This document shows, in pieces, positions 750 to 61,073 of a DNA stretch of 64,000 nucleotides. How positions within the stretch are numbered: position 1 is the first letter of the stretch; each line of letters opens with the position of its first letter. The DNA lies in contig JADDOH010010915.1 in assembly GCA_016648135.1 (NCBI GenBank), forward strand, positions 1 through 64,000, in the 5' to 3' direction. The DNA comes from Agrypnia vestita. Its lineage: Eukaryota > Arthropoda > Insecta > Trichoptera > Phryganeidae. A program made the translations under genes and the position numbers. The notes under the pieces were generated by a model. It made no database searches and was not told where the DNA came from. It saw only the letters and a program-made list of their open reading frames with translations.

Positions 750-1056
750 AAAATATTGATTATGATATTTTATAAATCTACTTATATTATGTGATAAATC
801 TCACCTACATTTTCGAAAATACCTTTCCATTCTATGAATTGTATAAAAATTGGTTAGTTATTTAAAAAAAAATTATTTTTAAAATTTTATCAATTAATTC
901 TGTATTGTATCCATTATTAAATGCTATTTGTTTTATTGTATTTAATTCAATTTGAAAATTAGAGTGAGACAAAGGTATTTCCGAAACCTGTAGGTGAAAT
1001 TTATCAAATAATATAAGTAGATTTATACTGTATTCTGTATACTGTAATCAATATTT
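750..1056. repeat. foldback with two decayed subfamily E hammerhead-like motifs
   Basis: Arms of about 85 bp begin AAATATTGATTA at the left and end with its inverse near 1,056. Remnant cores lie at 806-832 (-) and 963-992 (+). Both keep a GAAA(A/C) box and a UGUAGGUG 3' flank, but the CTGATGA box is lost. Confidence 0.6.
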
Positions 1057-1450
1057 AAAAAATAATAAGTGAAAAGTTAAGAATGAAATAAAACTCGTAA
1101 TAATGGCTGTGGAATTGGTTTTATTGGAAAGATAATTTGATGTCATAGTGTTGAAAAATAGGATATTATTTTTTCGAGTTGGAAGTTTTCCTGTGACAGC
1201 CAATGGTATCGTGATCATATTTAAACACCGATAGCATAAAAATTTCTATAAAACAATATTTTTACCATAATTTCAGAAGAAAAACGTTGAACTCATACTT
1301 AAATGTATGATTTATATTTTGATGAAAATTGACAATTCAGTGCGATATAATGCATTAATTTTTTTATAATTTTACGTGCCTACAGAATTTAACTGTAACT
1401 GGTTGCAGATATTTTAAACGAAACGTACGTTTTTTCGAGAAACGATTCTC

Positions 1451-1485
1451 GACGTTTCGTTGAATGCTTATTCAACGTCTTTAGG
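1451..1485 (-). ncRNA. hammerhead-like motif, subfamily B
   Basis: On the minus strand, CTAAAGA (a decayed CTGATGA) precedes a near-perfect stem II (GTTGAAT/ATTCAAC with loop AAGC) and GAAACGTC. Stem I can form five pairs, UUCUC/GAGAA. Confidence 0.5.
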
Positions 1486-1489
1486 AGAA

Positions 1490-3260
1490 AGTTAAAGTTT
1501 TATGTACATAAGTATGTTAGAAATAATTTGGTAATAATAATAAAATACATTTAAAAATATCAGAACTTACAATTATTGCAATTTTGAAATAAATTAACTT
1601 GACAATTAAAAAAATGTTGAAATAAATTGCCATGAGATGGAAACATTCCGGATGAATAATGTAAGTCTATGTTGGAGAAGTCCTCAATTCAACGAGCCTT
1701 ATCACAGAACTAAAATAATAGTGGCTAACATATCGCAAAAGTTCTTTAAATGGGTAAGCATTGGCGGAAGAAAAGATTATATTATAAAGAAAGAACTTGG
1801 TAGGCAGCTAGGTCTATGTATATTATTTAAATAATTATAATAAATAAGTCGTATTATTAAATAATTTATTTTTCTAAAACAGATAAACTTCTAAATAAAG
1901 AAATCAGATTTTTTTCGACGATCACTTTCAAGGTACACTTAAAAAATTTTTTAGTTGTTAGCAATAGTCATGCTTAGTAAAGAAAATTGTTTATTATTAT
2001 TAAAATGGTAATAGCAAAGATGATTATCATGGAATATGCTATATTGCTCTAAATCCAGTCATCTATAAGCTATTATAAGTTCACAAATTCTGAGAAATAT
2101 TAGACCATTTGGTGATAATTTTACTGCTACAAACTCGCTATGTTCTACATGGGGCGTGATCCGAAGAAACCAGCGTAAAGTTCTCTTTTGCCGAAAATTT
2201 CCCAAAATATGGCATGGAATGAATTTTTAATACAGGAGATATTTGGTGACAAACTTTCCCCATGATACTGCCAATTTTTCTAAAAAGTTGTTGACAAATG
2301 AAAAGAAAATGTTTTAGAACTTAGTTTTAGAGATGTAAAAGTTATATTGTCACAAGTGTTGATTCTATCAGAATTATCCCTTTGTTTTTCTCAATGAATT
2401 TTACCCCTCAGGAATGCTCGTGCATACGTTAAACATGAAAATCAGAGCAATATGCTCTTTTGTAATTTGAATACCAAATGAGACCTTTGTAAGGGTACTT
2501 GATTGGTTTTTAAATTATTTAAATTAAATATTACCGATCCTTAGTTTTGGTGTGGTGCGGGCACACAACATCAAAACCAAGAATTGATATTGTACCCACC
2601 AGTACAAACCTGTTTTTTACACATGGCATTAAGCAGTTTCCTTGTGAAGTTGACCTTTGCAATGATAATTTCCATGTCTTATGGAATTCAGTCAAATATT
2701 TTACAAATTAACGTAAAGTTACGTTCATTTTTCATAACATTGATAAAAAATTTAAGATTTAAGATTTTTTTGAATTAAAAGTCTATGGCAAAGATTGTTT
2801 GAGTGGAAAATTAACAACAGTAAAATGAATAAATATTATATGTAAATATGAAGTCCGCAACACTTAAATGTCTAAAGTGTACATGGATTAGGTTTTCAAT
2901 CATGAAGTTTTCACAGTAAAAATTTAAATTGTTTAAATAATGTATATAATTTGAAAATAAATCCTGAAATACCAATAGTCAATATTTTTATTCAAATAAA
3001 TTATCAATCTTATTGTGACTATTTGTGTTCATATGTTCATCCAATCGGTTTCAGTCGTATTATTTGTCAAGGTAAAAAAAAAATAAATGAATTATTATAA
3101 GGTATTTGCAACAAATATTACAAAAAATACGTTAAGTTTGTTCGATAAACAGATTCATGTAGTATTTATTCGTTTTAATTCCATTAAATTTATTTAAATA
3201 AAACAGTAATGTGGCACAGAAAGTGATTAAATATGTATCGCTAGGTAAATATTGTAAATA
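1490..3260. other. AT-rich, no gene seen
   Basis: Only short random ORFs. A small hairpin (CTTAGTTTTGGTGT...ACATCAAAACCAAG) lies at about 2,540-2,583. Confidence 0.6.
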
Positions 3261-3269
3261 AAAACAATT

Positions 3270-3690
3270 TGGCAACAGAAAGAATCACGCTTTCTCTATC
3301 GTAAGTGACACCCCGACATATTCACCCTGATACAGGGCTTAAAATGTAGAGGAAAATCACATCTCTCCCATGTACAGCTCGTGGATCATTATATTTTAAC
3401 CACAGCATACGCAAGAATGGATCTATAATTGATTTGTCCCTTTTTCTAACCCTATTTTACGAAAAACTTTTCTTCCAGCCATCGCTTCCTGCCCGGGCTT
3501 TTACCCTTCTGCGTAAGCATTTTCCAACATTCTAGCTCCCTCCCTTTGACCAGTTACCCTTCAAACTTACCCCTATTTATCCCACATTTTTCCGTTGACA
3601 TCTCACCCATATAGCGATGTTTCGGCATCCCCTTTTAAGAATCGAATAGATTACATCCAATATAAGCGAAAAACACGGAACGGTTCTTCG
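3270..3690. other. C-rich unique segment without ORF
   Basis: Pyrimidine-rich plus strand (CTTCCTGCCCGGGCTTTTAC near 3,486-3,505). It is distinct from the AT-rich flanks. Function unknown. Confidence 0.3.
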
Positions 3691-4639
3691 AAAATAGTAT
3701 AATATATCTACTAAGTATGTAAAATACGTTAGAGTTCAATCTAAATATTCAAATAATGTATCAGAGGGATGGAAATTAAATATGTATTCGTAAATCAAAT
3801 TCAGATAAAAAAAGATGAATAAACATCAAACTTATTATTTGTTTGCTGAACATAATATTGCGGATAATTAAACTCAGTACCTGCAAAAGATTTATCATTT
3901 AAAAAGTAAAACCTTACATTTTCTGATATGGGTATATAATTTAAATGAAGAACTGTCCTGAAGAAATGTTTTAATTTTTTTCGGTCGGAAATAATATTAT
4001 CTAGAGATGGTAAGGTTGACAAAGGTATAGGAGAATAACTTAGGGATGTAAAGCGAATGGTTTTCGTAAAACCATGCATGGTGGAGATCTAGTGCCAGTA
4101 TTAAATACATTGCCTTTTGCTTTTTCTACTTAGTCAGTACAATGGGTGGGGGATCTTTTTTTTCCTTTCCGTGATTTTTTTCCTTTGATGTGGTACATTA
4201 CAAAAACTTCTACAAGCTAACTTATCTTCTCACAAGATGTCCGAAAAATTGATAGATTTAAATAGGCAAATTGAGTCTAAATACTACTAATATCGTCATC
4301 GTTGCTGGGCATTATGGTCGAGAACCCTCTCACCTTCCATTTATTTTTTAAACAGAGGGCAAAGCTACGCAATTTTTTTAAAGGTGGTTAAGTTGTTGGC
4401 ATACCGGGGTTAAGCAATCAGAGTAGGTACTACAGAGGGTTGGATGCCAATTAGGAAAAGAGTTGGAAGTATTGGGATTAAAAGTATTGTAGTGGATGGG
4501 AAAATGGGTACGAAGGATGTATTAAGAGATGCGGGAAAGGAAAGGAGATTTGGATGAGAATCTCTTTTCTTTTACCCGTGCTTGGGACCGGTACCGCAGT
4601 TAGGAGTGGAGGCGGGTTCCTAATAATATATAAATTTCT

Positions 4640-5292: not shown

Positions 5293-5829
5293 TATATAAT
5301 ACATCAGTACATAACCTCAACATTTTTTGGTATCCGACACGTGTATGGATTACGTAAAAGTTTTGTACACGACCCACTTGTTGGAAAACAAATGAGTCAT
5401 CGTGTTTTTTTGTTTTCAAACATTTTCCGGCAGAATTAAAAATTACCATTTTTATACCGAGAAGAGTTATTTACATTTTTGACAAATTAATGAACAGAAA
5501 ATATTAATGTGAATTTTTCGCAGACTCGTATTTCTGAAAATTTTTCACATGCTTATTCCTTTGTACAAGGCAATGAACTTATATTTAGAAGCTTATGAAT
5601 AGCTAATTTTGTGTGAAATATTTTATCACATATTGGATTCTCGAGATAGTCCTGTCAAATTTCGGTATACGTACTAGGTTGATACGTATTATTTTGTTTA
5701 TATGTTGTATAATTTAAAAGAGCTTAATAAGTTATCTTCTTCAATTACAGTAAAACAACTTTATGATAACATTTTTTTATATTAATAAAAAGAAAACAAT
5801 TCGCATAAAAATACTATTTTTGAACTATC

Positions 5830-5862
5830 GACACTTTTCGGGGCCAATGGTCATTTCATCAT
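5830..5862 (-). ncRNA. hammerhead-like motif, subfamily C
   Basis: The minus strand reads ATGATGA, a hairpin with a GGCCCC arm, then GAAAAGTGTC. Stem I can form from UAUC/GAUA. The flanks, about 5,750-5,930, are homologous to 60,980-61,140. Confidence 0.5.
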
Positions 5863-5869
5863 GATACAA

Positions 5870-8090
5870 CGAATATCAAAGATTAATTAATACTCGAAGT
5901 ATAGATTAACAAAAATAAAAAACAAAAATACGGGTGTATAATAACTAATTAGGAACGAAGATGAAAACAAATTTAAAACGATAAGTTTTTGCAAAAAGGA
6001 TTTGGTTAAATAAGTAAGTAAATAAAAATATTTTTAGGTATATTATTGAATTTGTTTCAAGTCCTCGCACTGTGATCAATTTCAATGTCGTATAAAGAAA
6101 ATTTTTTATTTGCATATAGATAGAATTCTAACACAACTGTTATTGCAATAGTAGTTCAAGTATGTGAAAGATATTTATTTTAGATTACTGGTGTTTCTGT
6201 AATTTTAGAAATTAAAACAAAATCTTTCAGTTCATTTATACATTTTGTTATTTTTTCTTAATGTAATAATAAATTTAAAAAAAATTACTAATGTATGCAA
6301 AAAATAAGGTAGAAACATAAACATAAAATTTTATTCACCCTATACATTAGGTTCTTTATATAATAAAACATGATTAGCTTTTAAGAAAGCACGTTTAGAT
6401 GTGAAACATTTTAAATGCAAGTAGTAAAGAAAATTTTCTAAATAATTTAAAATATTTTTGTAAAAAACAGACGTTGTTTTTTAAAATAAATTAAAATTTT
6501 GATGTTTTATCAAGCATTCACGTATTTCAAAGTGTTAACTTCTATATGTTTTTGTAAAGTTATCTTCAACGATTATATCTATACTTAGGAATTAAACTAG
6601 TTTATAACGTCCCTCCTGTCTTTAGCAAAAACGTTTGACATAAGCATCCGACCGGAAACTGCAACCATTTTGAAATGTTGCCATATTTACATGGCGGTGA
6701 ACACACACACATTAATATTCATGTTTTAAAATGTGGTATGTTTTTAAGAATATCACGTACATTTGAAAGAGAATTGACAAAATTTTATCATTTTGTCTAG
6801 TTAACGTTAGTACTAGATCACAGTGCGTCGGAACTTTGGTATACACAGTGAGGGATTTTGTATGTAGATGTATTAGTCTTTAACGCAGGCCGGTCCTTAA
6901 AGGCTGCGATATATTTTGTATCGCAGTTTCCTTGTGGAACGCATTCCATTTTATAAAATATAATATATATGTATATATATAATAATAATAATAAAATATG
7001 TCAGTAACTCGTGAATTTTATCGTGGATCTCAGCTAAGGTTTTGCTCCTAAAAATTTAAGTCCTTGATCCATAAATGGGTACGTAATCTGCATATGTTAT
7101 ATACATATTTTTACAACCCTATGTTTAGGACGGGTCGTAACTTCTCATCGAGTTTGTTACTATTCTACGCGTTGAACTTATTTTTTACCACAACTTACGT
7201 TCTTTTCTCTTCTCTTCTCAGATACTTTATAGAAACTGGGCCAAAAAAGACGTAGGACTGTTAATTTTTCAGATTTTTTTTCAGTCATTTTTTCATCATC
7301 ATCAATCAGATATTTTTATTAATTGAAATGAATTATAGAAGTCACAAAGACGAAGCTATTTATATGGGAAACAAGTATGCAAGTCTTAATAGAGTGGCCC
7401 AGGGCTCACGACCTGTATTAGTTCACTTAACTGATCACTCTACACAATGTAACGTTCAGCAATTCCACCGCAAGAACATCCACACATTACCATATGTTTG
7501 AAAGTTGTATATATGTTCTAAATCAGTTTCTTTCATATACAAATGGACTATACTGGATATATCTATGATCCTTCCCATATCATAGTTATACATAGATTTT
7601 GCAGTTGGTAATGATACCTATATATTCTTAAAGTGGAATTTTAAGCAATATTATTTTTAATATACCTATAATATGAGGTAAATTTCTATTATTTTAACAT
7701 TTTTAACTTTAAAAATAAAATTATGTAATCAGTTTATTCGGTTAATTGACAAGTTTATGAAAACGTAGACACATCGTACATAACACATGCAGGCATGAGA
7801 GTTAATTAAGGATGGTTTAGTATGGGCATACAAACATAGACACATAGTATACCGCAATACATCTTGCACTAATTTTGCGACGATAATTTTGGACTGGGAA
7901 AAAAGGTAGATATGACAAGGTAGAGGCGGTCAAAGCCAACAAAATATATTGATTTACGGCCATAAAGTCTATATCCACACAACGAATTGGTAAATACTTC
8001 ACTAGCAACTTCAATTTGTTTGTTTTACAATTAAAATAAACATATTATTTGAAATAATTGTCTTTCTGCCCATTGAACCAAATTGTTGTT
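5870..8090. other. AT-rich, no gene seen
   Basis: A MITE end occurs at 7,336-7,430 (relative of 50,776-51,150), and a short hairpin (GCTGCGATATATTTTGTATCGCAG) at about 6,903-6,926. Nothing else was recognised. Confidence 0.6.
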
Positions 8091-8096
8091 GAACAG

Positions 8097-10049: not shown

Positions 10050-10290
10050 ATGTCGCGTAAAAAAACGAAATTAAACGGCCGGAGATGGGGCTTGAACCCC
10101 GCGCCTGCAAACCCGAACAAACCGCAACTTAGGAATGTTTCTATCGCCAAGCCTGCGTTACCGGTCAAAAATTCAGTATATATAGCACTTACTAAAGATT
10201 CGAACCATTTAATGTTCTGCCCAGCGCTGTCGACAGGGTTTAAAATAGTACCGTTAAAAGCCGGCAGAGGAAATATAAAAAAAAATGTTC
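10050..10290 (-). repeat. tRNA-derived SINE-like repeat, copy 1
   Basis: The minus strand has a polymerase III B-box-like GGTTCAAGCCCC (10,087-10,098) and a weak A-box region near 10,135. The sequence and flanks align with 30,140-30,310. Confidence 0.6.
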
Positions 10291-13050: not shown

Positions 13051-13057
13051 TTTTAAA

Positions 13058-13250
13058 ACTGTAAATAGTTACGGATACGGATATTTTATACGAACCGTAT
13101 GTTTTTCCGGGAAACGATTCTCGACGTTTCGTTGAATTCGTCATCAGGAGGACGACCTGTACCAGCGGAGGCACAGGACGGACTGATTAATGCTTCCAGA
13201 GGCGTAAGGCGTAAAAAATATCCGTAACCATTTACAGTTAAAAATGTCTA
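13058..13250 (-). repeat. Penelope-type repeat with inverted ends and a hammerhead-like core (subfamily B)
   Basis: ACTGTAAATAGTTACGGATA at the left and its inverse near 13,215-13,245 bound the unit. A minus-strand core lies at 13,123-13,147, with CTGATGA, a short GAATTC-containing hairpin and GAAACGTC. Stem I can form from CUC/GAG. The left part is homologous to 1,390-1,460. Confidence 0.6.
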
Positions 13251-14876: not shown

Positions 14877-14882
14877 GTATAC

Positions 14883-16195
14883 TGTTCCGGACGGGAACGC
14901 GCAAAAATATGGGGTGATTCCACCGCCTTACGGTCAGGTCAACCTGATGGCACCGATATCGCAGATTCTCAGACGAAAGCGAGATCGTATAAAAATTCGC
15001 TGAGAATCTTAGAGCGGTCCAAAGGCTGAAGCAGGAGTCGAGTAGAGAAGAAGAGAAAGTCGCAAGTAGATCTGGAGGTGAACGCAGGAGCAGAACTGAA
15101 TTCTGGGTTCCTGCGCCACGTAATTTATTTCATCAAAAAATCAGGGCCCGCACGCCCAGGCGCATTTTCAACGACCAGTCAGAGGTCGGCATTTCGGAAA
15201 CCGACGACACCGACCTCTGTCTGACGGCGGGATCACTACTCATAATTCGAGTCGCAGCTCTATGAGCAGTGGTCCCGTATTCAAAATATTAATAAACATG
15301 TAACTAAACATTCTACTATAGTTCTAACATACTATTTTTACACATTTATATTATATCTTTCTTTTGTTTTCAATAACAAATGTCTCTCAGGTTCATCCTT
15401 CATGGAGATAATCGGTAAAAAGGGGGCCAGACTCGCCAAGCTGGGTGCAATAATTTCGTATATTTGGTCTCTCTGGCGAGCCTGGCTACACAAATTCAAT
15501 ATTTTTTCTACATAAAATTATGTAAAGCCATATACAAGTGATTGCGAACAAAATCATATTAATTTTTACATTTTATAATTTTTGTATAAAAATGGCGACT
15601 TCGGCACGGTACCGATGTCGCAAGAGGGTACTGAATTGTGTTTGATAAAAATGGCGACTTTGGCACGGTACCGATAAAATGGCGACTTCGGCACGGTACT
15701 GATGTCGCTAGAGGGTAAAACCGATGCCCCCGGACTGTGGCGATACCGTACTGCAGTCGCCCAATATTACGATTTGGGAAGATTAAAATCTTTTTCAAGA
15801 ATCAAATCATGCCGCCGCGATTTCTTCTTACATCGCTTACAACATACACAAAAACATTTTTAACAACAAAATTAATCCGATAACGACCTCCCAGTGATGT
15901 CAAAAATAAACTTTAAAAAACATACATACAAAAATTACAATAAATAACTTCGGTTATTTTTAATAAAAAATGCGTCGAGCGCGCTAGGCATACCCAAAGG
16001 GTTTTATTTATTCTTGCCCATCTGCGCGCTCGCGCTCACAATTCATGTGATAAAAAATGCAATAATTAATTCTAAAAAATCAAAATACAAAAAAATCACT
16101 TTTTTCTTTAATAAAATGTTCATCAGTGCCAACATTTGGAGATTGGTAAAAAAGGCCCGATTAAGGGCCACCGGTTTTTTTTCTTGTCCGACACA
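14883..16195 (-). repeat. 3' LTR of the BEL/Pao element
   Basis: This is a near-identical partner of the 5' LTR and two bases longer. On the plus strand it runs from tgttccggac to ccgacaca. It carries the same three-fold block (about 15,591-15,710) and the same 79-codon ORF (15,559-15,798) with one visible residue change. Confidence 0.92.
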
Positions 16196-16206
16196 CTCCC
16201 CTCGTG
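16196..16206 (-). promoter_or_regulatory. polypurine tract of the BEL/Pao element
   Basis: Directly upstream of the 3' LTR in element sense the minus strand reads CACGAGGGGAG. This is a short purine run where plus-strand DNA priming would occur. It follows the integrase stop by about 50 bp. Confidence 0.6.
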
Positions 16207-16251
16207 CAGCTTGCCTGTGCTACCGGGAGGACAAGATATCTCGTCATAACT

Positions 16252-17718
16252 TTACTCTGTCGCAATCTTGGACAATGTCACGATCCTGGTGGCGGGCCGG
16301 GTGTAGTCACCGGCGGCGGTCCGTACACGAACGACCCGAACTTGACCGTCCGGTGCCGGCTTCGCCTCCATTATTATTCCTCTGGGCCACGTGTTTCGGG
16401 GAAGTGCGGGATCAACGATCACCGCTATTTCGCCTTCCTTGATGGCGGGAGCAGATTCCTGCCATTTATGCCCTCGGGCAAGCGTGGGCAGATACTCGCG
16501 CATCCATCTACGCCAAAAAAGGTCGGCCAGCTGTTGGCTCACTCGCCACTGCCTTTTCAGGCACACGTTCTCGTCAAGGGCGCCGTAGATGGCCAAATGC
16601 GAGTTGTGGCCTGCCATCCCCAATAAAAGATGGTTGAGGGTGAGGGGGGCATCATCTTTCGGGTCCACTGACACATGGGTCAGTGGACGGCTGTTCACGG
16701 TGTGCTCGGCTTCGGCCAGCACCGTTCTCAACATTTCTTCTCGTGGCGCTCTTTCTTTTAGTGTGGCTTCCAATGCCCTTTTTACGGCGCGTACTAAACT
16801 TTCCCACGCGCCGCCCATGTGCGGGGCGAGGGGAGGGTTGAAGTGCCACTCCACCCCGCTCCCCGCTAGATGCTCCTGCATTCTTTTATCTTCGGACAAT
16901 TCGGCCAATGCCCTGGCCATTTCTTTTTCGGCTCCTCTAAAATTTGTTCCATTATCCGAGTAGATGAAACGAGGATGACCGCGGCGTGCTGCCATTCTTC
17001 TAATGGCGAGTATGGCTGAGTCAGTTGTCAGCGACTCAGCCAGCTCCAGGTGTACGGCGCGTGTTGTTAGGCACGTGAACAACGCGCCGTACCGTTTTTC
17101 TTTTCGTCGGCCGATGGTAATCATCATCGGCCCAAAATAATCCAATCCACATCGGTGGAAGGCCGGCGTGTGATGCTCCAGCCGGCAGACCGGGATTTGC
17201 CCCATCAACGGAGGGCGCGGCTGGCTTCTCTGGACTCGGCACGCTTGGCACTCAAACTTGATACGTCGCACTGTCGGTCTTAGTCGTAGTATGAAAAAGT
17301 TTTCACGTAAATCAGACACGGTTCGTTCGGTGCCCGGGTGATTTCCTTTTTCGTGATAATGTTTTACCATTATTCTTGTGTATGGGTGGGCGCCGTCCAA
17401 AATGACGGGCGCCCTCAATCCTGGTGGTATATCTGTCACCGTGGTTTCTGCCAGCCGTGATCCCATCAGAATGACTCCGAAATCATCTAGCAGTGGCGTC
17501 AAGTGGTGGATTCGGCTATTTTTGGCCAGGAGTCCTCCTTTCTGGAGAGTCCTGATTTCGGGCCCAAAGGCGTCTGCCTGGGCTTGTAAGACCCAGGCAC
17601 GCTCGGCTTCAATTCTTTCAGCCGAGGTTATATCTCGACCGGGCTGGTCTCTGTGTGGCGACGACAATTCGCCACAAAACGCCTCACCCAAGCGGTGGCG
17701 CGGACCAGCCGGGTCCAC
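16252..17718 (-). CDS. BEL/Pao integrase
   Basis: This frame of 488 codons inserts the cDNA into the host genome. An N-terminal HHCC zinc finger is visible (HYHEKGNHPG at 120-129, CQAC at 157-160). It is followed by the catalytic DDE triad: Asp193 in GLDYFGP, Asp255 in YSDNGTNF and Glu306 in MGGAWESL. The last two are 50 residues apart. The C-terminal domain has the QLADLFWRRW segment typical of BEL elements. It ends about 50 bp before the polypurine tract. The first 20 or so residues are read across a frameshift from the RNase H frame, so the listed start is not a true start. Confidence 0.88.
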   Translation of the reverse strand: MDPAGPRHRLGEAFCGELSSPHRDQPGRDITSAERIEAERAWVLQAQADAFGPEIRTLQKGGLLAKNSRIHHLTPLLDDFGVILMGSRLAETTVTDIPPGLRAPVILDGAHPYTRIMVKHYHEKGNHPGTERTVSDLRENFFILRLRPTVRRIKFECQACRVQRSQPRPPLMGQIPVCRLEHHTPAFHRCGLDYFGPMMITIGRRKEKRYGALFTCLTTRAVHLELAESLTTDSAILAIRRMAARRGHPRFIYSDNGTNFRGAEKEMARALAELSEDKRMQEHLAGSGVEWHFNPPLAPHMGGAWESLVRAVKRALEATLKERAPREEMLRTVLAEAEHTVNSRPLTHVSVDPKDDAPLTLNHLLLGMAGHNSHLAIYGALDENVCLKRQWRVSQQLADLFWRRWMREYLPTLARGHKWQESAPAIKEGEIAVIVDPALPRNTWPRGIIMEAKPAPDGQVRVVRVRTAAGDYTRPATRIVTLSKIATE

Positions 17719-18644
17719 GACGAGAAGCGCGTTATGTCAGGCAGCGCTCCCCCCGTATTTGCATGCCGGACCACCAGTACGGTCGCGGGTTTCATCTCCA
17801 ACATGCTTTCTGATGGTTGTAGTCGGCAGGCCTCTCGTGGCCAAGCCGATTCTCCTCTTCGGAGGAAGTCAGGACCGCCAAACCACATACCGTCCGCTGA
17901 CAGGTTTTGAGGATCGCCATCCCTGGTGCCGATATCCGCCGGGTTATGACGCGTAGGGACCCATTTCCAGTCCGTGACTTCGGTCAGCTCGTCAATCTCC
18001 CCCAGACGGTTCGCTACGAACGCTGAATATGATCGAGGATCGGTTCGTATCCAGCACAGGACCGTTGTAGAGTCGGTCCAATACTGAGTTTTGACAATTT
18101 CACATCGGTGTTCTCTTTTTATGGTGGCCGCTAATCGTGCGGCCAGAAGTGCCGCTTGAAGTTCCATACGTGGAATGGACAAGGGTTTCAAAGGCGCCAC
18201 CTTGCATTTTGCCGATATGAAGGCTACGTCCGAGCCGCCCTCTCCTTGCTCGGCAAAATACGCAATGGCACAGCATGCTTTTTCCGAAGCATCACTAAAA
18301 ACATGTAAAACAACTTTGCTGTCTCGACGCGAAAGACATGGTCGAGCGATCACACACACTGTTTCTTTAATTAATTGGTACCACGCGCGCCATTTTTCGT
18401 TTCGATTGTTCATCACCAGCTGGGGTGGTAGAGCGAGTCGTCGCACGGTGCTCGCTCGCAACGGGTGGTCGGCCCCGTTGCCCCGAACTGTCACATTCAC
18501 AAGTTGAGACCGGTCGTCCGACGAACACATCCCGTTGGCGCCGTGGTTACGTAATCCACGGACCGGTCCTTGGGCCCCGACAGCGCTGGCCACACCGGCC
18601 TCGATGAGGGTAACCGTCGACCCCTCATCGAGTAACGCGTGCAC
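17628..18644 (-). pseudogene. BEL/Pao pol fragment: protease fused to RNase H, no reverse transcriptase
   Basis: This open frame of 338 codons begins in the protease active site, ALLDEGST (Asp6), the usual BEL variant of the retropepsin DSG motif. After an LPPQ motif near residue 74 it jumps to NEKWRAW, which normally lies after the reverse transcriptase palm. The central RT domain is absent. RNase H follows with its acidic set at Asp118 (HVFSDASEKA), Glu161 (PRMELQAAL), Asp191 (YWTDSTTVL) and Asp237 (HNPADIGT). It overlaps the integrase frame by 91 bases in another frame, which marks a frameshift. I see no YxDD box on this strand in the element. Confidence 0.85.
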
Positions 18645-19707
18645 TTTGAATTGCCCTAGGACTCACGATCACCGGAAGCACTTTTAAAAACACTGTTTGC
18701 TGGTACTCCCGGCCTCCCGTGAGGCCCACTGTGTCCCCATTCGGAGGGACCGCGTTCGATGCCCCGCGCGATGGCATATTCGATGGAGCACCCGAGTCTC
18801 CCGCGCGCGGCGCACTATGTAGCGTGCGGTGGTGTAGCGCGCGACAACCGCTTACACCACACCGCTTGCTTCTACACTGTTGGGACCGGTGTCCCTTCAC
18901 CAAACAATTGAAGCAAATGGCCATTTCTTTCACTATGGCCCATCGGTCGGCCACTGGTTTTCGCGAATACACTCCGCACTCAGACACGGGGTGTTCCGCC
19001 ACTTTGCAGATACTGCACAAAATTTCTGGTGACTTCCGATTCACTGTTTCACTGTCGCTTGTCATATTCACATGTCCGCTTCGGCGAACTGCAATTTTCT
19101 TTGATCGACATCCGGCATAAGGGGCCATCTCGGTTTGGCGGTTTCTTCGGATGGCTTCTTCAATCCAAGAAGTCACCATTTCTTCAGGGTCGGGTTGGTT
19201 CAAAACCCAATCTCGGGTGAACGCACTCGCTCCTGGGCACCGCTCCGGCAGTGCTGATGGGTTGGAAGAGGCGTGTAGGGCCTCTTCCCTTGCGGCTTCA
19301 GCCGCATCTCGGATGGTACGCCTGGCCGCGGCGTCCACAGAAGGTGCCTTGTTCGGGGCACCAGGTGGTTGCTGCTCAATACTCACCAGGCCCTTTTCAG
19401 GGCTACCAGACGTGTCGATTCTCGTCGCAGCTCCGGCTGCGCTCATCCTGGGAATCGTCGTCTGGCTGGCAGTACACACGCGGATTAGCGCATCCGCGTG
19501 CTCTCGTTGGAGATCTCTTGCGTGTTGTTGCTGTCGACGGAGCTCCGCCCTCAAATGGCGGATGGTGTCCTCCGTCGTCACGGAATCCCGTGTCTCCCTC
19601 GTGGAGTCACGTTCTCCGTCGGAACCGGCCTGTTCCGACTCATCTCGATGAAGTTCTTCCTCCTCTCGGTCACGGGCATGACCCGATCGTAGTCCTGATC
19701 GTGACAT
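18625..19707 (-). CDS. BEL/Pao Gag protein and start of protease linker
   Basis: An open frame of 360 codons starts about 40 bases after the primer site. Gag forms the capsid-like particle that packages the element RNA. The N-terminus is rich in Arg and Glu and probably coiled (residues 5-80). A CCHC zinc knuckle, CFNCLVKGHRSQQC, lies at about 265-278 and is followed by a second Cys/His cluster ending in HH. The last 20 residues before the stop resemble the N-terminal edge of BEL protease (FLKVLPVIV). The frame then slips by one base and stops at 18,625. Gag looks shorter than typical BEL Gag, so an internal deletion is possible. Confidence 0.8.
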   Translation of the reverse strand: MSRSGLRSGHARDREEEELHRDESEQAGSDGERDSTRETRDSVTTEDTIRHLRAELRRQQQHARDLQREHADALIRVCTASQTTIPRMSAAGAATRIDTSGSPEKGLVSIEQQPPGAPNKAPSVDAAARRTIRDAAEAAREEALHASSNPSALPERCPGASAFTRDWVLNQPDPEEMVTSWIEEAIRRNRQTEMAPYAGCRSKKIAVRRSGHVNMTSDSETVNRKSPEILCSICKVAEHPVSECGVYSRKPVADRWAIVKEMAICFNCLVKGHRSQQCRSKRCGVSGCRALHHRTLHSAPRAGDSGAPSNMPSRGASNAVPPNGDTVGLTGGREYQQTVFLKVLPVIVSPRAIQSARVTR

Positions 19708-19745
19708 TGTCGCTGGTGACGTGTAGCTGACGCGTAGAACGGAGA

Positions 19746-19762
19746 TCCGGCTCGAAGGACCA
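19746..19762 (-). promoter_or_regulatory. tRNA primer-binding site of the BEL/Pao element
   Basis: Two bases inside the 5' LTR, the minus strand reads TGGTCCTTCGAGCCGGA. It starts with the TGG complementary to a tRNA CCA end and looks like a tRNA acceptor and T-arm complement. An arginine tRNA is a guess. Confidence 0.75.
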
Positions 19763-19764
19763 GC

Positions 19765-21075
19765 TGTTCCGGACGGGAACGCGCAAAAAAATGGGGTGAT
19801 TCCACCGCCTTACGGTCAGGTCAACCTGATGGCACCGATATCGCAGATTCTCAGACGAAAGCGAGATCGTATAAAAATTCGCTGAGAATCTTAGAGCGGT
19901 CCAAAGGCTGAAGCAGGAGTCGAGTAGAGAAGAAGAGAAAGTCGCAAGTAGATCTGGAGGTGAACGCAGGAGCAGAACTGAATTCTGGGTTCCTGCGCCA
20001 CGTAATTTATTTCATCAAAAAATCAGGGCCCGCACGCCCAGGCGCATTTTCAACGACCAGTCAGAGGTCGGCATTTCGGAAACCGACGACACCGACCTCT
20101 GTCTGACGGCGGGATCACTACTCATAATTCGAGTCGCAGCTCTATGAGCAGTGGTCCCGTATTCAAAATATTAATAAACATGTAACTAAACATTCTACTA
20201 TAGTTATAACATACTATTTTTACACATTTATATTATATCTTTCTTTTGTTTCAATAACAAATGTCTCTCAGGTTCATCCTTCATGGAGATAATCGGTAAA
20301 AAGGGGGCCAGACTCGCCAAGCTGGGTGCAATAATTTCGTATATTTGGTCTCTCTGGCGAGCCTGGCTACACAAATTCAATATTTTTTCTACATAAAATT
20401 ATGTAAAGCCATATACAAGTGATTGCGAACAAAATCATATTAATTTTTACATTTTATAATTTTTGTATAAAAATGGCGACTTCGGCACGGTACCGATGTC
20501 GCAAGAGGGTACTGAATTGTGTTTGATAAAAATGGCGACTTTGGCACGGTATCGATAAAATGGCGACTTCGGCACGGTACTGATGTCGCTAGAGGGTAAA
20601 ACCGATGCCCCCGGACTGTGGCGATACCGTACTGCAGTCGCCCAATATTACGATTTGGGAAGATTAAAATCTTTTTCAAGAATCAGATCATGCCGCCGCG
20701 ATTAGTTCTTACATCGCTTACAACATACACAAAAACATTTTTAACAACAAAATTAATCCGATAACGACCTCCCAGCGATGTCAAAAATAAACTTTAAAAA
20801 ACATACATACAAAAATTACAATAAATAACTTCGGTTATTTTTAATAAAAAATGCGTCGAGCGCGCTTGGCATACCCAAAGGGTTTTATTTATTCTTGCCC
20901 ATCTGCGCGCTCGCGCTCACAATTCATGTGATAAAAAATGCAATAATTAATTCTAAAAAATCAAAATACAAAAAAATCACTTTTTTTCTTTAATAAAATG
21001 TTCATCAGTGCCAACATTTGGAGATTGGTAAAAAAGGCCCGATTAAGGGCCACCGGTTTTTTCTTGTCCGACACA
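19765..21075 (-). repeat. 5' LTR of the BEL/Pao element
   Basis: This LTR lies at the 5' side in element sense. Its outer end reads ccgacaca|gtatac on the plus strand and its inner end abuts the primer site. It contains three copies of an ATGGCGACTTyGGCACGGTA block (about 20,471-20,590) and a minus-strand ORF of 79 codons (20,440-20,679). Confidence 0.92.
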
Positions 21076-22029: not shown

Positions 22030-22057
22030 GACGTTTTGGATCATGAGGTCCATCATC
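22030..22057 (-). ncRNA. decayed hammerhead-like motif, subfamily A
   Basis: The boxes read TTGATGA and AAAACGTC around GGACC/GATCC. Upstream words match the 59.8 kb repeat. Probably inactive. Confidence 0.45.
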
Positions 22058-23198
22058 AAATTTATTTGAGATGAAAAATATAAAAAAGTAAAATTACCAG
22101 TTCCAATTACAAAAAAATGAAGAAAGCTTATTTAAAAAAATCAAATAATCTCAGTTTTTATATGTAAAAATCGCGCGCACTGAATTGAACTGTTCGGAGT
22201 ATAACTACCAAAGATCAATTTGAATTTTAAACACGCTGTACAACCTATTGCTAGCTACAAACGATTTTGCGTGATCTCTTCTACGCTGGTAGCTATAAAT
22301 ATGCACAAGAAACTCTGACAATACTTTCATGTTATCTTTGAAAATTCACATTCACTTATTTTGAATGCGTTGTTTGTGCTATCTTTGCTTGTGTAGGTAA
22401 GTAGAAATTGCAAAAGGAATGTATTTATTTTGCAGATCGTTTATTAACCAAACGGTCGATATTTCTCACTTCTTCGGCAGCGCGGGGCCTATCGAGGCAA
22501 TTTAATCAGAGTTCAATCAAATTAGAAATGTGAATAAATAAATAATTCACGTTGATACACGGTCTTCATTATAGCATTCGGCGTAATGGCCTGGGGTGGT
22601 CGTTAAAAAGCGATATTGGTTCAAGAAACCCCACTTTATTTATTGGAGGCTTACGGAATTTTTTGGCTACCCAAATACTGAGATCAAATCGGAGAGGGTA
22701 CTTTAAATAGGAAACCTAAACACCATATTGGAAGACCTCCCCGGGGATGTCATTAATTTATTCGGCTTCACTGCCTTTAAAATTCTCCTCATCACACTTT
22801 TCCCTATCGATCCGCCATCCCTTCGGCCCGACATCTTTATTTTCCTGAACGGATTCCAACTTTTGAGTTGTTCATTTACATTTGATATTTTTAAGTGATT
22901 TATATTTTGAGAATTAAAATTTATAATATTATGCTTTGTGATAATCACCTGAGTTTATTTATTTAAACCAATCGGTTTTGGAAACTGTTATTTCAAACAA
23001 CATAAAATCAATATCCCATATAAACAAATTTATTAAACTTTGTTATTCTAGTACTTAATTATCGTATGTGTATTATTATATTCTAGTTGTAACCCTTCAA
23101 AAATGATAGTACTTTTACATATCATTTTATTAAAACCAAATATTTCGGAAAAAAAAATTCTTGTTGGAGAGAGGATCTTGTTGATGATTATTATTTTA

Positions 23199-27850: not shown

Positions 27851-28035
27851 TTTAAATTATTTTTTTTTAATACATTTTTTTTTTACAAGGTTATGAATGG
27901 ATGTTTCTCTACTACATGAGTGTCATAAACTCGTGTGTAGGAGAGGAGTATCATTACATTATACATTTACAAAGAATTATGTGATAAAATTTACATATTC
28001 TTCAGGTAATAAGTTTATGTGTAGACAATCAAGTA

Positions 28036-37231: not shown

Positions 37232-37263
37232 CTGACGATGGAAAGGTTTTTCCGAAACATGTA
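37232..37263 (+). ncRNA. minimal hammerhead ribozyme motif, subfamily E
   Basis: CTGACGA, a perfect stem II (GGAAA/TTTCC), then GAAACATGTA, where C-G closes a two-base stem III loop and GUA is a permitted cleavage triplet. Stem I is ACC/GGU. The downstream sequence TAAGTAGATATATAC matches the 750-1,056 foldback. Confidence 0.6.
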
Positions 37264-41075: not shown

Positions 41076-41344
41076 AAATATTAGAAAAATGTTTTTTTAA
41101 TATGTGTAATATAACACCAATTAGTGGATTTAGTCCACAGAGGGATAATCATTATAACGAAAAGTTGAAGAGTAAAAGTTCTAACTAATCTAATATAAGG
41201 CAATATGAGGAAATATATATATGAGGCAAATAAATAACATATATACATACTGTTGTATTTTGCTATAACTTTGTGGTTTTTCATTATGAATATAATTAAA
41301 CTAATTAACTTTATTTACACCACTAAAATTTATTTGGTAAAACC

Positions 41345-41376
41345 AACCGGTTTCGGAAACGACGTTCATTCGTCAG
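41345..41376 (-). ncRNA. minimal hammerhead ribozyme motif, subfamily D
   Basis: The minus strand reads CTGACGA, a hairpin with GAAC/GTTT, then GAAACCGGTT. Stem III is a loopless palindrome, CCGG, which suggests dimeric folding. Stem I is ACC/GGU. A related decayed copy lies at about 22,966-22,997 (-). Confidence 0.6.
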
Positions 41377-41417
41377 GGTATACTTAATACTATTATATAG
41401 TATACCCAGTATTAAGT

Positions 41418-41449
41418 ATGATGAAGAAACGTCATTTCCGAAACCGGTT
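41418..41449 (+). ncRNA. hammerhead-like motif, subfamily D
   Basis: ATGATGA, a hairpin GAAA/TTTC, then GAAACCGGTT. This arm has one box change, and stem I is weaker than in its mirror partner. Confidence 0.5.
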
Positions 41450-41649
41450 GGTTTTATCAAATAAATTTTAGTGGTGTAAATAAAGTTAATTAGTTTAATT
41501 ATAAACATATATACAACTTTAGAAAATTTAATAGATGCGTGGTTGGTCTTGGGTGGAATCGGTGAAATAAAGACTTCCATACATACTTTCCCATATAAAC
41601 AGCTTCATTTCTATGTGACACCTATTAATTTATCTTAAATTTTGAAAAA

Positions 41650-42020: not shown

Positions 42021-42599
42021 TTTTGAAAAATATAATCAAACCTCTAGTGCTGTACCACTTGCCGCCGTTAAACGCTCGGCATAAAGGTGATCAAGGAATA
42101 TTGATTTGTATACCGCGTTCAAAACATTTGTCCCAGTTTTGACTAAAAGGTTTTCCCACTTTTTACCTCATTCCAGCCAGAACTGGCGTCTAGGGATTTC
42201 CACGCCCTTATTTTGAGATCCACAATTCTGTTTTTCTGCGATTTTCAAACCGTGGGTCAGACATTATTTCTTCAATATCTAACATAATTAATGAAAGAGT
42301 TTTAAGATGGTCAAATATCAATAAATATCCTGTATTTTTAATCATCTTTTCGAAACAAATCATTCATTTGATAATATGGGTTTAGAAATTTTACAAACAT
42401 AGAATTACACTTGGTTTAATTAAAAATTAGAAAAAGTGTTAATAGTAAATTAATTATTATAAATTTCCAAATAGGTTTTGCAAATAACATCCTTTTAGAA
42501 TTGTTTTCACATAAATTCTTAATTAGTTATTCAACTTTCATCTATTTATTTTTGTTAATTTCTATACTCCGAATTAAATTTTTTAATACACGTTTTATC

Positions 42600-42632
42600 C
42601 TGCTGAAGGGGTCATTGGCCCCGAATCATGTT
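42600..42632 (+). ncRNA. hammerhead-like motif, subfamily C
   Basis: CTGCTGA, then a GGGG/CCCC hairpin, then GAATCATGTT. Stem I is UAUC/GAUA. The core has two changes from consensus, so activity is doubtful. Confidence 0.45.
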
Positions 42633-42769
42633 GATAATTCAATTGATACAAACAGATATTATTACAAAATAAATATAAAAATTAATATATAAAAAAACAA
42701 AAAATTTTAGACTTAAAAATTTTTTAAATTTATTTTAATTTAAAATACAATATAGAAAAAAAATTACAC

Positions 42770-46814: not shown

Positions 46815-47415
46815 AATTTAGCTAGTAATATTAATGGAAACCTGATAAAAGATGAAAACGGTATCTTGGAAAGGTGGAAGCAGTACTTCGAAGACTCGCT
46901 GATCGTGCCAGGAATTCACGTATTGAGGACTAATCACCCTAATAGGGAGGAAGCTTTAAACATAACACTTGCGGAAGTGACAGCGATGGTTCAGTTGGCA
47001 AAAAACAGGAAGGCAGCCGGAACAGACGAGTTAAGATGATTAAGGCTCTCAGTCAAACCGGACTACGGTGGCTAACCCGGATAATGAACATCGCATGGAC
47101 AAGCAGTAGTACTCCTGTGGACTGGCAAATGGATGAAAAGAAAGGAGATAAAAAGGAATTTGGAAACTATTGTGGAATCACGCTGCTAAGCCAACCAGGA
47201 AAAATATTTGCTAGAATCCTCGAGAAAAAATGTTGTAGCATCACAGAGGGAAAAATACAGGAAGAGCAATGTGGCTTCAGGAGCGGAAGCGGGACAACAG
47301 ACCAGTTATTCATCCTGCAGCAAGCTATCGAAAACCCACGGGAGATTGCTAAGCTGATAAACACAGCATATCTAGATTTAGAAAAGGCTTATGTTATAAT
47401 TCCACGTCAGTCATA
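46815..47415 (+). pseudogene. LINE reverse-transcriptase N-terminal fragment
   Basis: The plus strand reads LIKDENGILERWKQYFED, then LAKNRKAAGTDELR. The 47,036-47,416 frame then has DWQMDEKKGDKKEFGNYCGI, EEQCGFRSGSGTTDQLFILQ and YLDLEKAYV, the RT motif A region. It ends abruptly at 47,415 where unrelated sequence starts. Confidence 0.75.
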
Positions 47416-48450: not shown

Positions 48451-48937
48451 TACACGGTTAACCTTTATTCAACCCTAGAAAGTAATAACGCGTCAAATTG
48501 GCGCATGGGTTAAAAAAGTCTATTTTATATATTTAAAATCTACGCGAACAAAACAAACGGATATTATTTTTTTAACCAGTCGGGTGCTGAAGTGCTGATC
48601 TGCGCTCCCTAGACATGTATGCAAATTCAGCCTATTTTACCTGTGTTTATGAGTTTTTAAAGCTTATCATTGGTTGTATCTCAAATTTTTTAATGAATAA
48701 ACGAGTTCTATTTGTCAAGTAACCTTATTTGCCGTGCAAACTGGACAAAAAATCATTCCAAAAGTCGTCTTTGAAGCGCGCATTGTGTTATTTATCTGTT
48801 AAATTTTTTTATTTTAAATAAAAAAAAATGTTCATTAAAAAGTGTACAAAAAGTCGTTCATAATTGAGCTCCAGTAGGATATTTCAAGATGTTTTTGATT
48901 TATTGTACTGTGAACTTGTGAATACTCAAAAAAAAAT

Positions 48938-48997
48938 TATATTTCAATAATTGCTTGTACAATAAGTATTTATTGTACAAGCAATTATTGAAATATA
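48938..48997. repeat. perfect 27 bp hairpin upstream of the DXO gene
   Basis: Left arm 48,938-48,964 and right arm 48,971-48,997 are exact inverse copies around a 6-base loop. It lies about 330 bp before the ATG and could be a MITE remnant. Confidence 0.8.
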
Positions 48998-49303
48998 AGT
49001 AATTATTGAAGTTTGTATATTGAGAAACCAGAAACTGCAACTTCTTAGTAATTATTATTGATTCTTACATGAATATAACCATCACGAAAATGTGTCTTAA
49101 AAACAACAATTGTGCGCGAAATTGTGCAACGGACAGGGTACATTCCGCGATACGCACGGCTGGCATCCATTAATTGTACATAAATGAAACAAAGAATATA
49201 ATATTATACTTTTGTTTTAAATATTCTTCTACAACTTTCTTTAGACTCACATTCCTCTTGTGATGTAAAGGTATTTAATGTCCTCAATTTATTCACTTTT
49301 ACA

Positions 49304-52184: not shown

Positions 52185-52307
52185 GGTGGAAAGGAAAAAA
52201 TGACCAAGCGATAATTTGGCCGAAATTGAGTTATATATAACTCAACTATATACATATATAACTCAATTTCGGCCAAATTGTCGCTTGGTCATTTTTTCCT
52301 TTCAACC
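52185..52307. mobile_element. short palindromic MITE
   Basis: Two arms of about 52 bp are near-perfect inverse copies (GGTGGAAAGGAAAAAATGAC at the left, its inverse at the right). They are separated by a short AT-rich loop with ATATATAACTCA words. Transcripts would fold into one long hairpin. Confidence 0.7.
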
Positions 52308-54504: not shown

Positions 54505-55783
54505 GGTCCTTACATATGAAATTGGCGTTTAGTATGGGAGGAACATAAAGCCGATTTTTTTTTATTATAATGTATTTGTTTAATCAAAGTATGTACCATT
54601 GCTATCTATGCACTTTTGCCATCTCATAGGTAGTTCATCGATCCCTTTACTAAAAAAACCATTCGGACGGGAATCAATAAAATCTTTGAAGGCGGTTTGG
54701 ACTGCGCCATCGGAGTTGAAGTTTTTCCTTTGCAAGAAGTTATCCAAATGTCGAAAAAAATGGTAATCTGTTGGGGCAAGGTCCGGAGAGTACGGTGGAT
54801 GTCTTAGACATTCCAATTGAAGCTCCTCTAATTTGGTAGCCGTCTGTTGTGCAGTGTGTGGTCTAGCGTTATCATGAAGCAGCAGTGGCCTAGAGAGATT
54901 AACCAGCCTCGGTTGTTTAGCAGCTAGCTTTTCCATCATGGTTTACAGTTGCTGACAATAGACATCTGCCGTAATCGTCTGGCCAGATTTAAGAAATCTG
55001 TAGTGAACGACACCAGCACTAGTCCACCAAACGCTCAAAAGTAACTTTTTTGGAGTCAATTTTCGCTTGGGGCATGGTTTGGCTGGTTCGGCAGGGTTCA
55101 GCCATTGCGATGAGCGCTTCCGATTATCGTACAGGATCCACTTTTCATCACAGGTAATGATTCGATTTAAAATCCCTTCATTATTGTGCCGGTTGAGTAA
55201 TGCAACGCAGCAGTCAACGCGCGTTTGTTGATTTGCTTCACTCAATTCGTGAGGGACCCACCTTTCAAGCTTTTTCACCTTACCAATTTGCTTCAAGTGG
55301 ATTAAAACAGTTTTATCACTAACACCGCAGCCTGCAGCTAACTCGGATGTGGTTTGCGATGGATCCGCTTCCACAATAGCCTTCAATTCTTCATTATCAA
55401 CTTTGGGCTCCGGCCGTCCACGGGGCTTGTTCTGCAGGTCGAAATTTCCAGAACGAAAACGTTGGAACCAAAACGCACTGTGTTTTCTTTTGCGGCACCG
55501 TCGCCATACACATCATTAATCCTTCGAGCCGTTTCTGCAGCACTGGTGCCACGGTGGAACTCGTACTCGTAAATAACGCGATATTTCAAGTTTTTCATTT
55601 TGTAAACTGAGTGACGCAAAGAAAAAAACAATTGAGGAAAAAACAAATGAATTATAATTTTCAAAACACAAATACATGAGTAAATAGCTGTATAAATTTG
55701 GATTTGGAATTCCTAACCAAAGAGAAGATATTTGAGATCAAATTTGCCAGTACGGCAAAATGCCAATTTCATATGTAATTACC
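54505..55783 (-). mobile_element. mariner element (cecropia-like), full length
   Basis: A 1,279 bp element flanked by TA on both sides. Its terminal inverted repeats read ggtccttacatatgaaattg on the left and, inverted, ggtaattacatatgaaattg on the right. It carries one transposase gene with a single stop and a single frameshift. Confidence 0.93.
54580..55598 (-). pseudogene. mariner transposase, one frameshift and one premature stop
   Basis: The reading frame spans about 339 codons, the normal length for a mariner cut-and-paste transposase. The start is ATG at 55,598 (MKNLKYRV). The N-terminus holds the HTH pair, and the linker WVPHELSE is visible. The DD34D triad is complete: Asp in ITCDEKW, Asp in LLHDNARPHT and Asp in YSPDLAPTDYHFF. 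The WQKCIDSNGTYFD C-terminus resembles Hsmar1-type (cecropia subfamily) transposases. One T is missing from a T run at 55,470-55,473. An in-frame TAA at 54,943-54,945 splits the protein. This is a lightly damaged, formerly active copy. Confidence 0.9.
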
Positions 55784-59673: not shown

Positions 59674-59905
59674 TTAAGGTACAGAATGTTAAAATAAAAT
59701 AAAATACATAAAAATCCTAGAAATGGCCATGTTGTTTTTATTGGAAAAATAATTTTATGCCATTAGTATTTAAATACAACGATTTTCGAAATAAATTTGC
59801 ATAATTTGCAAATATAAGAATGTTCTTAGGTTTTCACGTCCACTCAGAATCTTCTGGTTTGTGTCTTCTGGGGTATTATGCCGTGTTATTATGAGCTTTC
59901 TGGCC

Positions 59906-59940
59906 GACGTTTCGGATCCCGTTGCAGGGTCCATCATCAG
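59906..59940 (-). ncRNA. minimal hammerhead ribozyme motif, subfamily A
   Basis: Read on the minus strand, the box CTGATGA (59,940-59,934) is followed by a stem II hairpin with GGACCC paired to GGGATCC, then GAAACGTC (59,913-59,906). Bases just outside, GCC before and GGC after, can form stem I. Stem III is reduced to the C-G of GAAACGUC with no loop, as in hammerheads known to cleave as dimers. This is inferred from sequence only. Confidence 0.65.
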
Positions 59941-59972
59941 GGCTGATGTGTTGATGTTGATACATATCAGCC

Positions 59973-60007
59973 CTGATGATAGACCCTGCAATGGGATCCG
60001 AAACGTC
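59973..60007 (+). ncRNA. minimal hammerhead ribozyme motif, subfamily A
   Basis: CTGATGA at 59,973-59,979, a hairpin with GACCC/GGGATC, then GAAACGTC ending at 60,007. Stem I can form from GCC/GGC. Beyond a small internal loop, UAU/AUA pairs again, as in type I hammerheads. It is the mirror partner of the 59,906-59,940 copy. Confidence 0.68.
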
Positions 60008-60275
60008 GGCCATAAAGGTCGTAATAACATGACATAATACTCCAGAAGACACAAACCAGAAGATTTGTAAATTTTTTCTAGCTTAAGTCTATTCATGGTG
60101 AAATGGCAAACCAAATTGAGCACAAATCAGCTATCTGCTGTTAAATTGCTGTCGCTGGAAAAAATGTTGTCAATTTGAAAAATAAACCTCTAAAAAACAC
60201 CCTACATTTAAACACTTATGGCATCAACTGTAAGATATTTGAAATGTACTGCCTCAGTACGGGTCTTTCCATTCA

Positions 60276-60422
60276 AGAAAGACAATCGCATCAGTATGTG
60301 TAAGCCGTACGTACGTCGCACATTGTTCCTTTGTGTTGGTGTTTGCGGGTATAAACGCCAACACAACGAAACAATGTGCCTCGTACGCACGGCACTACAC
60401 ATACTAATTTGATTGCCTTTCT
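60276..60422. mobile_element. 147 bp palindromic element
   Basis: Arms of about 70 bp are inverse copies with about 85% match. They contain GTATGTGTA, CGTACG and CACATTGTT words, with a 4-6 bp loop near 60,348. The GC content is above that of the surroundings. Confidence 0.65.
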
Positions 60423-60479
60423 AAAATGAAAAGAACTCTATGTTTGTATACTTTCCATGTTGAGAAAAATACAAATGGG

Positions 60480-60760
60480 TCATATCTTCATGTTGAAACT
60501 TTCTGCAAGCCCCTGCCACCCGGCAGGTTGGCTCAGCGAGAATTTCGAGACCATCATTAACACCAGCAGATTAATTGGCAAAACACGAGTGGGATGTTCA
60601 CACCAGCAAGTGTGCCGACTACCGATCTGCTCGCCCACGCCACGCGTGTAATCAAGACACAAATATTGATTGCGTCAATATTTTTTGCCCCCCTTATTAT
60701 GGTCCAAAATGTGGCAATTGGCAGACCAGCACCATTGGCGGATTTATTGTGAAAAATATT
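60480..60760. other. GC-richer unique segment
   Basis: Includes CCACCCGGCAGGTTGGCTCA and GATTAATTGGCAAAAC. No repeat relation or coding signal was seen. Confidence 0.35.
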
Positions 60761-60872
60761 GTCAGAGTTGATTTATTGCGAATAATATTGTAAAATTTTT
60801 TAATTGCCCGTTTAGATCTTCTGGTTATATTTTCATGGGGTATTCTGCCGTTTACAAACGACCTTCCCGGCC

Positions 60873-60905
60873 GACGTTTCGGAACCTTTCAGGTTCCTAC
60901 ATTAG
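60873..60905 (-). ncRNA. decayed hammerhead-like motif, subfamily A
   Basis: GAAACGTC and a perfect stem II (GGAACC/GGTTCC) are kept, but the CTGATGA box reads CTAATGT. Stem I pairing is lost. Probably inactive. Confidence 0.5.
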
Positions 60906-61040
60906 CTCTTATGTGGTAGTATGAGTGTTGTACTGTTGAATAAGTGTATATACTCAACTGGTTACATAAACAAAATTGAATTGATTTTATATTAGTAAAA
61001 AGAAAACACTTTGTATATAACCACTTTTTACTGAATTATC

Positions 61041-61073
61041 AACACGTTCTGGGGCCGATGGTCCCTTCATCAG
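61041..61073 (-). ncRNA. hammerhead-like motif, subfamily C, beside a GIY-YIG relic
   Basis: The minus strand reads CTGATGA, then AGGGACC...GGCCCC, then AGAACGTGTT. Stem I is UAUC/GAUA. It lies about 60 bp downstream, in the same sense, of a Penelope-type endonuclease remnant. Confidence 0.55.

Follow-up and report, generated by a model that had tools for sequence, protein, structure and literature searches.

Minimal hammerhead-ribozyme motifs, many of them decayed, at probable Penelope-like retroelement ends in a 64-kb window of the Agrypnia vestita genome

The 64,000-nucleotide stretch of the Agrypnia vestita (Insecta; Trichoptera) genome analysed here, positions 1 to 64,000 of contig JADDOH010010915.1 (assembly GCA_016648135.1, 1.32 Gb) and called the window below, carries dispersed motifs that are genuine hammerhead-ribozyme sequences and often decayed ends of Penelope-like retroelements (PLEs). 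Very probably, these are minimal hammerheads of type I situated in the pseudo-long terminal repeats (pLTRs) of several PLE families, which are represented in the window by short pLTR pairs and solo pLTRs, many of them decayed. An earlier note on this DNA had described minimal hammerhead-like loci dispersed on both strands and divided into five subfamilies with the stem I pairings GCC/GGC (A), CTC/GAG (B), TATC/GATA (C) and ACC/GGT (D and E); both the loci and the pairings were recovered as described. The head-to-head pairing of the pLTRs and the one-arm tail presented below are additions to that description.

A covariance model built from 33 genome copies and containing no window rows (R2) detected eight loci at E < 0.01 when the 64,000 bases were searched with the filters off, compared with a nominal chance expectation of 0.01 (the E-values of this tool being rough). 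A second model of 40 rows, seven of them from the window (R1), detected ten loci at the same threshold. Simpler patterns made a weaker case than R2. The words CTGATGA-N4-30-GAAA were seen five times against 1.19 expected, and a strict descriptor gave three matches, one of which (5584) lies outside the motif family, compared with an average of 1.05 over 40 shuffles; requiring a perfect core left one match, compared with 0.025. Families A, B and D emerged from the word searches and the strict descriptor, and local alignment of flanks and re-inspection added the C copies and the D and E pairs; two decayed A copies (A3 and A4) and the decayed D pair were identified through their flanks and were missed by R2 at threshold. 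The word matches at 16103 and 20985, which lie in the two copies of one repeat, were rejected as standing outside the hammerhead family. The Rfam hammerhead models, whose use had been proposed in the earlier note, gave no window match at E ≤ 10, and in eight loci, among them the viral contigs L006 and L012, they found no hammerhead at E ≤ 1; since the motifs of L006 and L012, which by eye are hammerheads with a stem III, were also missed by Rfam, this result is hard to interpret and was set aside.

The motif families have the type I hammerhead architecture, with covarying stems I and II. Pairing was evaluated in 33 genome rows, comprising the first 30 genome places in contig order, not selected for stems, together with L039, L064 and L062, and in 40 rows, comprising the first 30 genome places, L039, L064, L033 and seven window copies. 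Conservation of the boxes in these rows is by construction, because the search pattern fixed them; stem pairing was left free except in L039 and L064, found with a descriptor in which stems were mandatory. With the hammerhead structure imposed on the 33 rows, 82.3% of the pairing cells were paired, compared with 63.4% for shuffled partners and at most 51.4% for slid ones. The covariation score of stems I and II, calculated without phylogeny correction, though slid partners retain relatedness, was 0.576 versus 0.238 after shuffling (standard deviation 0.024; 0 of 500 as high) and at most 0.260 after sliding; for the 40 rows, it was 0.564 versus 0.226 and at most 0.246, respectively. Four of the five pairs in stem I and five of the six in stem II showed changes on both sides. 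Moreover, at least three contiguous in-register stem I pairs were present in 17 of the 30 copies not selected for stems, compared with 0–1 of 30 when the register was shifted by one to three positions. The compensatory stem change claimed in the earlier note is thus borne out by the covariation score; two other measures did not clear the shuffles (see below). In 28 of the 30 copies L065-L094, a single unpaired nucleotide separates A9 from the best stem II. Several viral-contig hammerheads were seen to carry an unpaired nucleotide after A9 as well, although this form was favoured by the search pattern.

Genome-wide, the A box CGAAACGTCGGCC has 11,483 matches against 9 for its reversed control, and one core form with the spacer centre left free has at least 27,145 against 59. 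Both patterns together match the window five times (three A box, two other), the average being 1.9 per 64 kb, so the window is somewhat rich in motifs, not extraordinary. The suggestion that five subfamilies within 64 kb are striking retains this excess in its favour and is weakened by the tens of thousands of matches elsewhere in the genome.

In the monomer, stem III is missing, and a self-complementary spacer takes its place. Among the 27,145 matches, the spacer centre was AT in 11,281, CG in 10,205 and TA in 2,440, which sum to 23,926 self-complementary spacers (88%) with the GC centre outside the tally, where equal use of dinucleotides would give 4/16; these counts are not independent, as the families share ancestry. 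Among the matches listed, 86 of 100 spacers were self-complementary, and the others had AC (3), TG, GG, CA, GT and TT (2 each) or AA (1). Such a share of self-complementary spacers is a prediction of cleavage by dimers. Dimer hammerheads are reported to need a palindromic stem III loop and, in eukaryotes, tandem motifs (PMC6466107). In two-strand folds of six copies, the dimer was more stable than two monomers in all six; L039 and L100 took the double-hammerhead layout and four folded otherwise. The putative dimer action proposed in the earlier note is supported by the self-complementary spacers: in a direct two-pLTR transcript, or between two transcripts, the hammerheads would pair via the spacer, form a shared stem III and be cleaved after GUH. 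A more speculative and improbable extension is that the spacer classes ACATGT, ACCGGT and ACTAGT, plus ACGT, serve as self-recognition codes, a full stem III being formed only between transcripts of the same class. If this were true, each set of PLE families would process or package its own RNA and ignore the others in the same cell.

The link with Penelope raised in the earlier note was substantiated for family A by a parent element carrying both reverse transcriptase (RT) and GIY-YIG domains. At L062, a 794-codon RT/GIY-YIG frame (RVT_1, E 2.6e-10; GIY-YIG, E 1e-3) is flanked by two A motifs in direct orientation, 2,563 bp from each other. Pieces with GIY-YIG matches adjoin A motifs at L052 (E 1.3e-4) and L047 (E 1.4e-5), and a weak RT piece adjoins an A motif at L054. 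We infer that families B–E are also PLE members.

Among the first ~100 places listed for each pattern, neighbours within 1 kb were head to head in 44 of 47 cases, with 12 of 12 for the A box (one of them from a family with a TTGACAA core), 7 of 8 for the ACATGT spacer families, 17 of 17 for ACTAGT and 8 of 10 for ACCGGT; the pairs L042-L054 and L116-L123 were fetched for their close neighbouring motifs. Of 14 head-to-head A pairs, 12 had a tail, recognised by a 26-nt pattern beyond the pLTR, on a single arm, two had it on neither arm and none had it on both; at L043, a pattern-negative A pair, a diverged tail is visible by eye. Of eight pairs fetched from other families, seven had a tail on one arm that contained ATG and a stretch resembling CCACAAAG, and in the eighth (L119) a tail missed by the pattern was seen by eye. 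The A and E pairs of the window each carry the tail on the minus arm. L063 was rejected as a direct pair, its two motifs belonging to different families. For Penelope, inverted pLTRs with palindromic junctions, mostly head to head, with an optional 31-bp tail and target-site duplications (TSDs) of 8–10 bp or none, are reported (PMC3846280), and the tail is tied to internal reverse-transcription starts, with the hammerhead overlapping the start of the frame (PMC11167929). The one-arm tail is a published PLE pLTR signature, with which the window A and E pairs accord. The inverted pairs are presumably by-products of the insertion mechanism of the element.

As a separate observation, the TTGACAA core (U3 and A8 for C3 and G8) occurs at L041, L050/L115, L053/L114 and L063 and is identical in the 6/6 copies seen; this family includes two head-to-head pairs with a one-arm tail by eye and an RT frame in L053. 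Covariation of U3 and A8 in natural hammerheads has already been published (PMC3088659).

Within the window, where pairs are given without a strand, family A is represented by a head-to-head pLTR pair at 59848..60065 with 104-nt arms that are 91% complementary and separated by 10 nt. It includes A1 (59906..59940, minus strand, extending from the core to the cleavage site; intact core, ACGT spacer and a GCC/GGC stem I; R2 59898-59948, E 1.3e-5) and its inverted partner A2 (59973..60007, plus strand; intact core, mismatch at the base of stem II; R2 59965-60015, E 6.1e-6), and the 26-nt tail is located on the A1 arm only (59822..59847, minus strand), starting 54 nt past the A box. The decayed copy A3 (60873..60898, minus strand) gave partial matches (E 0.76 with R1, 0.62 with R2), and A4 (~22030..22059, minus strand) was recognised by its flanks. 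The E pair at 41285..41509 has 91-nt arms, 92% complementary, with 43 nt between them; E1 (41345..41376, minus strand) has an intact core, stem I ACC/GGT, spacer ACCGGT and breaks in three of the six model pairs of stem II (R2 41337-41384, E 5.5e-9), E2 (41410..41457, plus strand) is its inverted partner with a damaged core (R2 E 8.5e-4), and a tail start with ATG...CCACAAAG lies on the E1 arm only (41269..41284, minus strand). D1 (37232..37263, plus strand), with stem I ACC/GGT and spacer ACATGT, looks intact and gave the R2 match 37224-37271 (E 1.3e-14), and a decayed D head-to-head pair occupies 771..1027 (arms 771-809 and 989-1027, 95% complementary). Stem I TATC/GATA is found in C1 (61041..61073, minus strand; GAAA box damaged; R2 61033-61081, E 3.6e-9) and C2 (42600..42632, plus strand; core CTGCTGA, position 6 changed; R2 42592-42640, E 4.9e-11), and C3 (5830..5862, minus strand) is a decayed C copy with position 3 changed (R2 5822-5870, E 0.0026). 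B1 (13123..13147, minus strand) has an intact core and stem I CTC/GAG and has lost a stem II arm; possible remains of a B pair extend over 13052..13244, with terminal inverted arms 13052-13077 and 13219-13244 that are 88% complementary. B2 (1443..1492, minus strand) has stems I and II intact and a damaged core, CTAAAGA.

Both boxes (CUGANGA and GAAA) are kept in A1, A2, B1, D1 and E1 of the ten clearer copies, and core changes are present in B2, C1, C2, C3 and E2. When A3, A4 and the two arms of the D pair are added, the core is damaged in 9 of 14 window copies by our count, and for this reason the term ribozyme fits the families rather than every window locus. A transcript of the A pair is predicted to fold into a single hairpin (-180.6 kcal/mol, z -25.7), inside which the two motifs would be buried; inverted pairs are probably inactive in place, the sense and antisense hammerheads folding together. 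Judged from these fold predictions and core changes, ribozyme activity of the window copies is doubtful. Insertion of the Anolis element in vitro is reported to occur without need for its ribozyme (PMC11167929).

The element type is already known, and the window by itself contributes no system of a new kind. Minimal type I hammerheads of PLEs have been described (Cervera and de la Pena 2014; Lunse et al. 2017, as cited in PMC7761336, PMC6155905 and PMC6466107), and the motifs presented here share with them the core, the missing stem III, the location in pLTRs, the self-complementary spacer and the thousands of dispersed copies per animal genome. The differences are limited to new families and to the unpaired nucleotide after A9 noted above. 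With the tailed Penelope pLTR pairs (PMC3846280; Anolis PAc, PMC11167929), the copies share inverted head-to-head pLTRs, a palindromic junction, the one-arm tail and a frame with RT and GIY-YIG, but many copies here are short pairs without coding sequence between them. Type I hammerheads are also common to these elements and to animal retrozymes (PMC7229834); however, retrozymes are tandem repeats, whereas the copies here are mostly head-to-head pLTRs, and the family A element has its own RT/GIY-YIG frame. Many animal genomes are reported to contain minimal type I hammerheads by the thousand, either dispersed or within PLE pseudo-LTRs (PMC7761336), and a coral to have more than 6,000 type I motifs belonging to 16 families (PMC7229834). 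Many diverged families of one small ribozyme in a single genome would permit comparative tests of pairing rules and of the role of the ribozyme in Penelope retrotransposition.

Several points weigh against the assignment to PLE hammerheads. Self-cleavage of the copies is putative. The B copies are weak with R2 (1443-1492, minus strand, E 0.13; 13115-13155, minus strand, E 0.2), at the same level as an unrelated AT-rich match at 27984 (E 0.13), and because of these scores their assignment rests on shared flanks and stem I. Among the pair measures, two of five fail to clear the shuffles: pairs changed on both sides numbered 9 versus 8.6 in shuffles (equalled or exceeded in 299 of 500), and there were 28 further pair types versus 24.5 (26 of 500; in the 40 rows, 30 versus 24.9, 4 of 500). 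Fewer than three stem I pairs were present in 13 of the 30 genome copies. The GIY-YIG match of L062 is under the cut-off of Pfam; no PLE protein was found among the 10 of 232 window open reading frames (ORFs) scanned, and an RT match in one of them, 46946-47413, is under the cut-off. A search for TSDs gave no clear one, the best candidates being 5–6 nt within a free end search. In addition, 3 of the 47 close neighbours among the matches listed are not head to head, the pattern finds no tail in 2 of the 14 A pairs, an arm is cut in one of the pairs counted, and L064, a 15th pair 4 kb apart, has a tail match on both sides. No tail was seen beside the window C and D copies, and none for B.

Three alternatives were weighed. 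The pairs might be foldbacks of DNA transposons (miniature inverted-repeat transposable elements) whose terminal inverted repeats resemble hammerheads by chance. Such an origin would suit the short inverted pairs, which enclose little sequence, and the missing PLE frame in the window ORFs scanned, but the RT/GIY-YIG frame flanked by direct copies already contradicts it for family A, and the asymmetric arms with a tail on one side, the lack of a clear TSD and the hammerhead covariation across families make it highly improbable. It is just as hard to believe that the boxes were conserved as the first codons of the protein of the element and not for RNA structure. The A box CTGATGATGG does open a frame, MMDPA.GSETSA..., which was found by hand to be in phase with the downstream L062 ORF, a single stop separating the two there. 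However, the stems covary across families, the D1 frame from ATGG ends at TAG inside the motif, and in the pairs of other families the candidate start ATG is located in the tail, downstream of the motif. The A reading frame alone found no protein relative. A search with a peptide of an insect repeat gave 2,294 proteins at E ≤ 10 (120 of them listed), and this peptide matches the A frame at 17 of 39 residues, which is a lead only.

The third alternative, that the motifs are non-autonomous retrozymes, i.e., small type I hammerhead units repeated in tandem that spread as circular RNA, draws on reports of insect retrozyme-like repeats with type I hammerheads (PMC7229834). Its probability is very low: tandem units of 150–350 bp were not found, neighbours within 1 kb being head to head in 44 of 47 cases among the matches listed, and family A flanks a full PLE frame. 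Minimal hammerheads in PLE pLTRs thus remain the preferred explanation.

Pattern scans of other sequences gave some additional observations. Among 12 matches in genome contigs, one was judged to be a genuine minimal hammerhead; this is L033:54-104, in the bacterial bin contig WRIF01000209.1 (presumably of termite-gut origin, judging by the isolate name), with stem I ACTC/GAGT and spacer ACATGT, and it lies near the contig end, in what is possibly host DNA. Three of four viral-contig scans were empty, and the fourth gave 21 matches, of which about a dozen resemble, on visual inspection, stem III-bearing hammerheads and the others chance matches.

The window also contains other features. A Bel-Pao-type LTR element occupies 14882-21062 (Peptidase_A17, integrase zinc domain and DUF5641; GC 0.549 in mid-element; near-identical repeats 4,882 bp apart), and remains of a Mariner-type transposase (Transposase_1) are located at 54946-55512. 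The frame at 49328-49984 matches a RAI1-like decapping nuclease and is perhaps an exon of a host gene. A dispersed 66-nt repeat with a tRNA-like stretch occurs at 10060-10125 and 30152-30217 (83% alike) and is perhaps a short interspersed element. Finally, the hairpins at 52206-52286, 48932-49003 and 60309-60388 match microRNA models under the gathering score and are perhaps short inverted-repeat elements.

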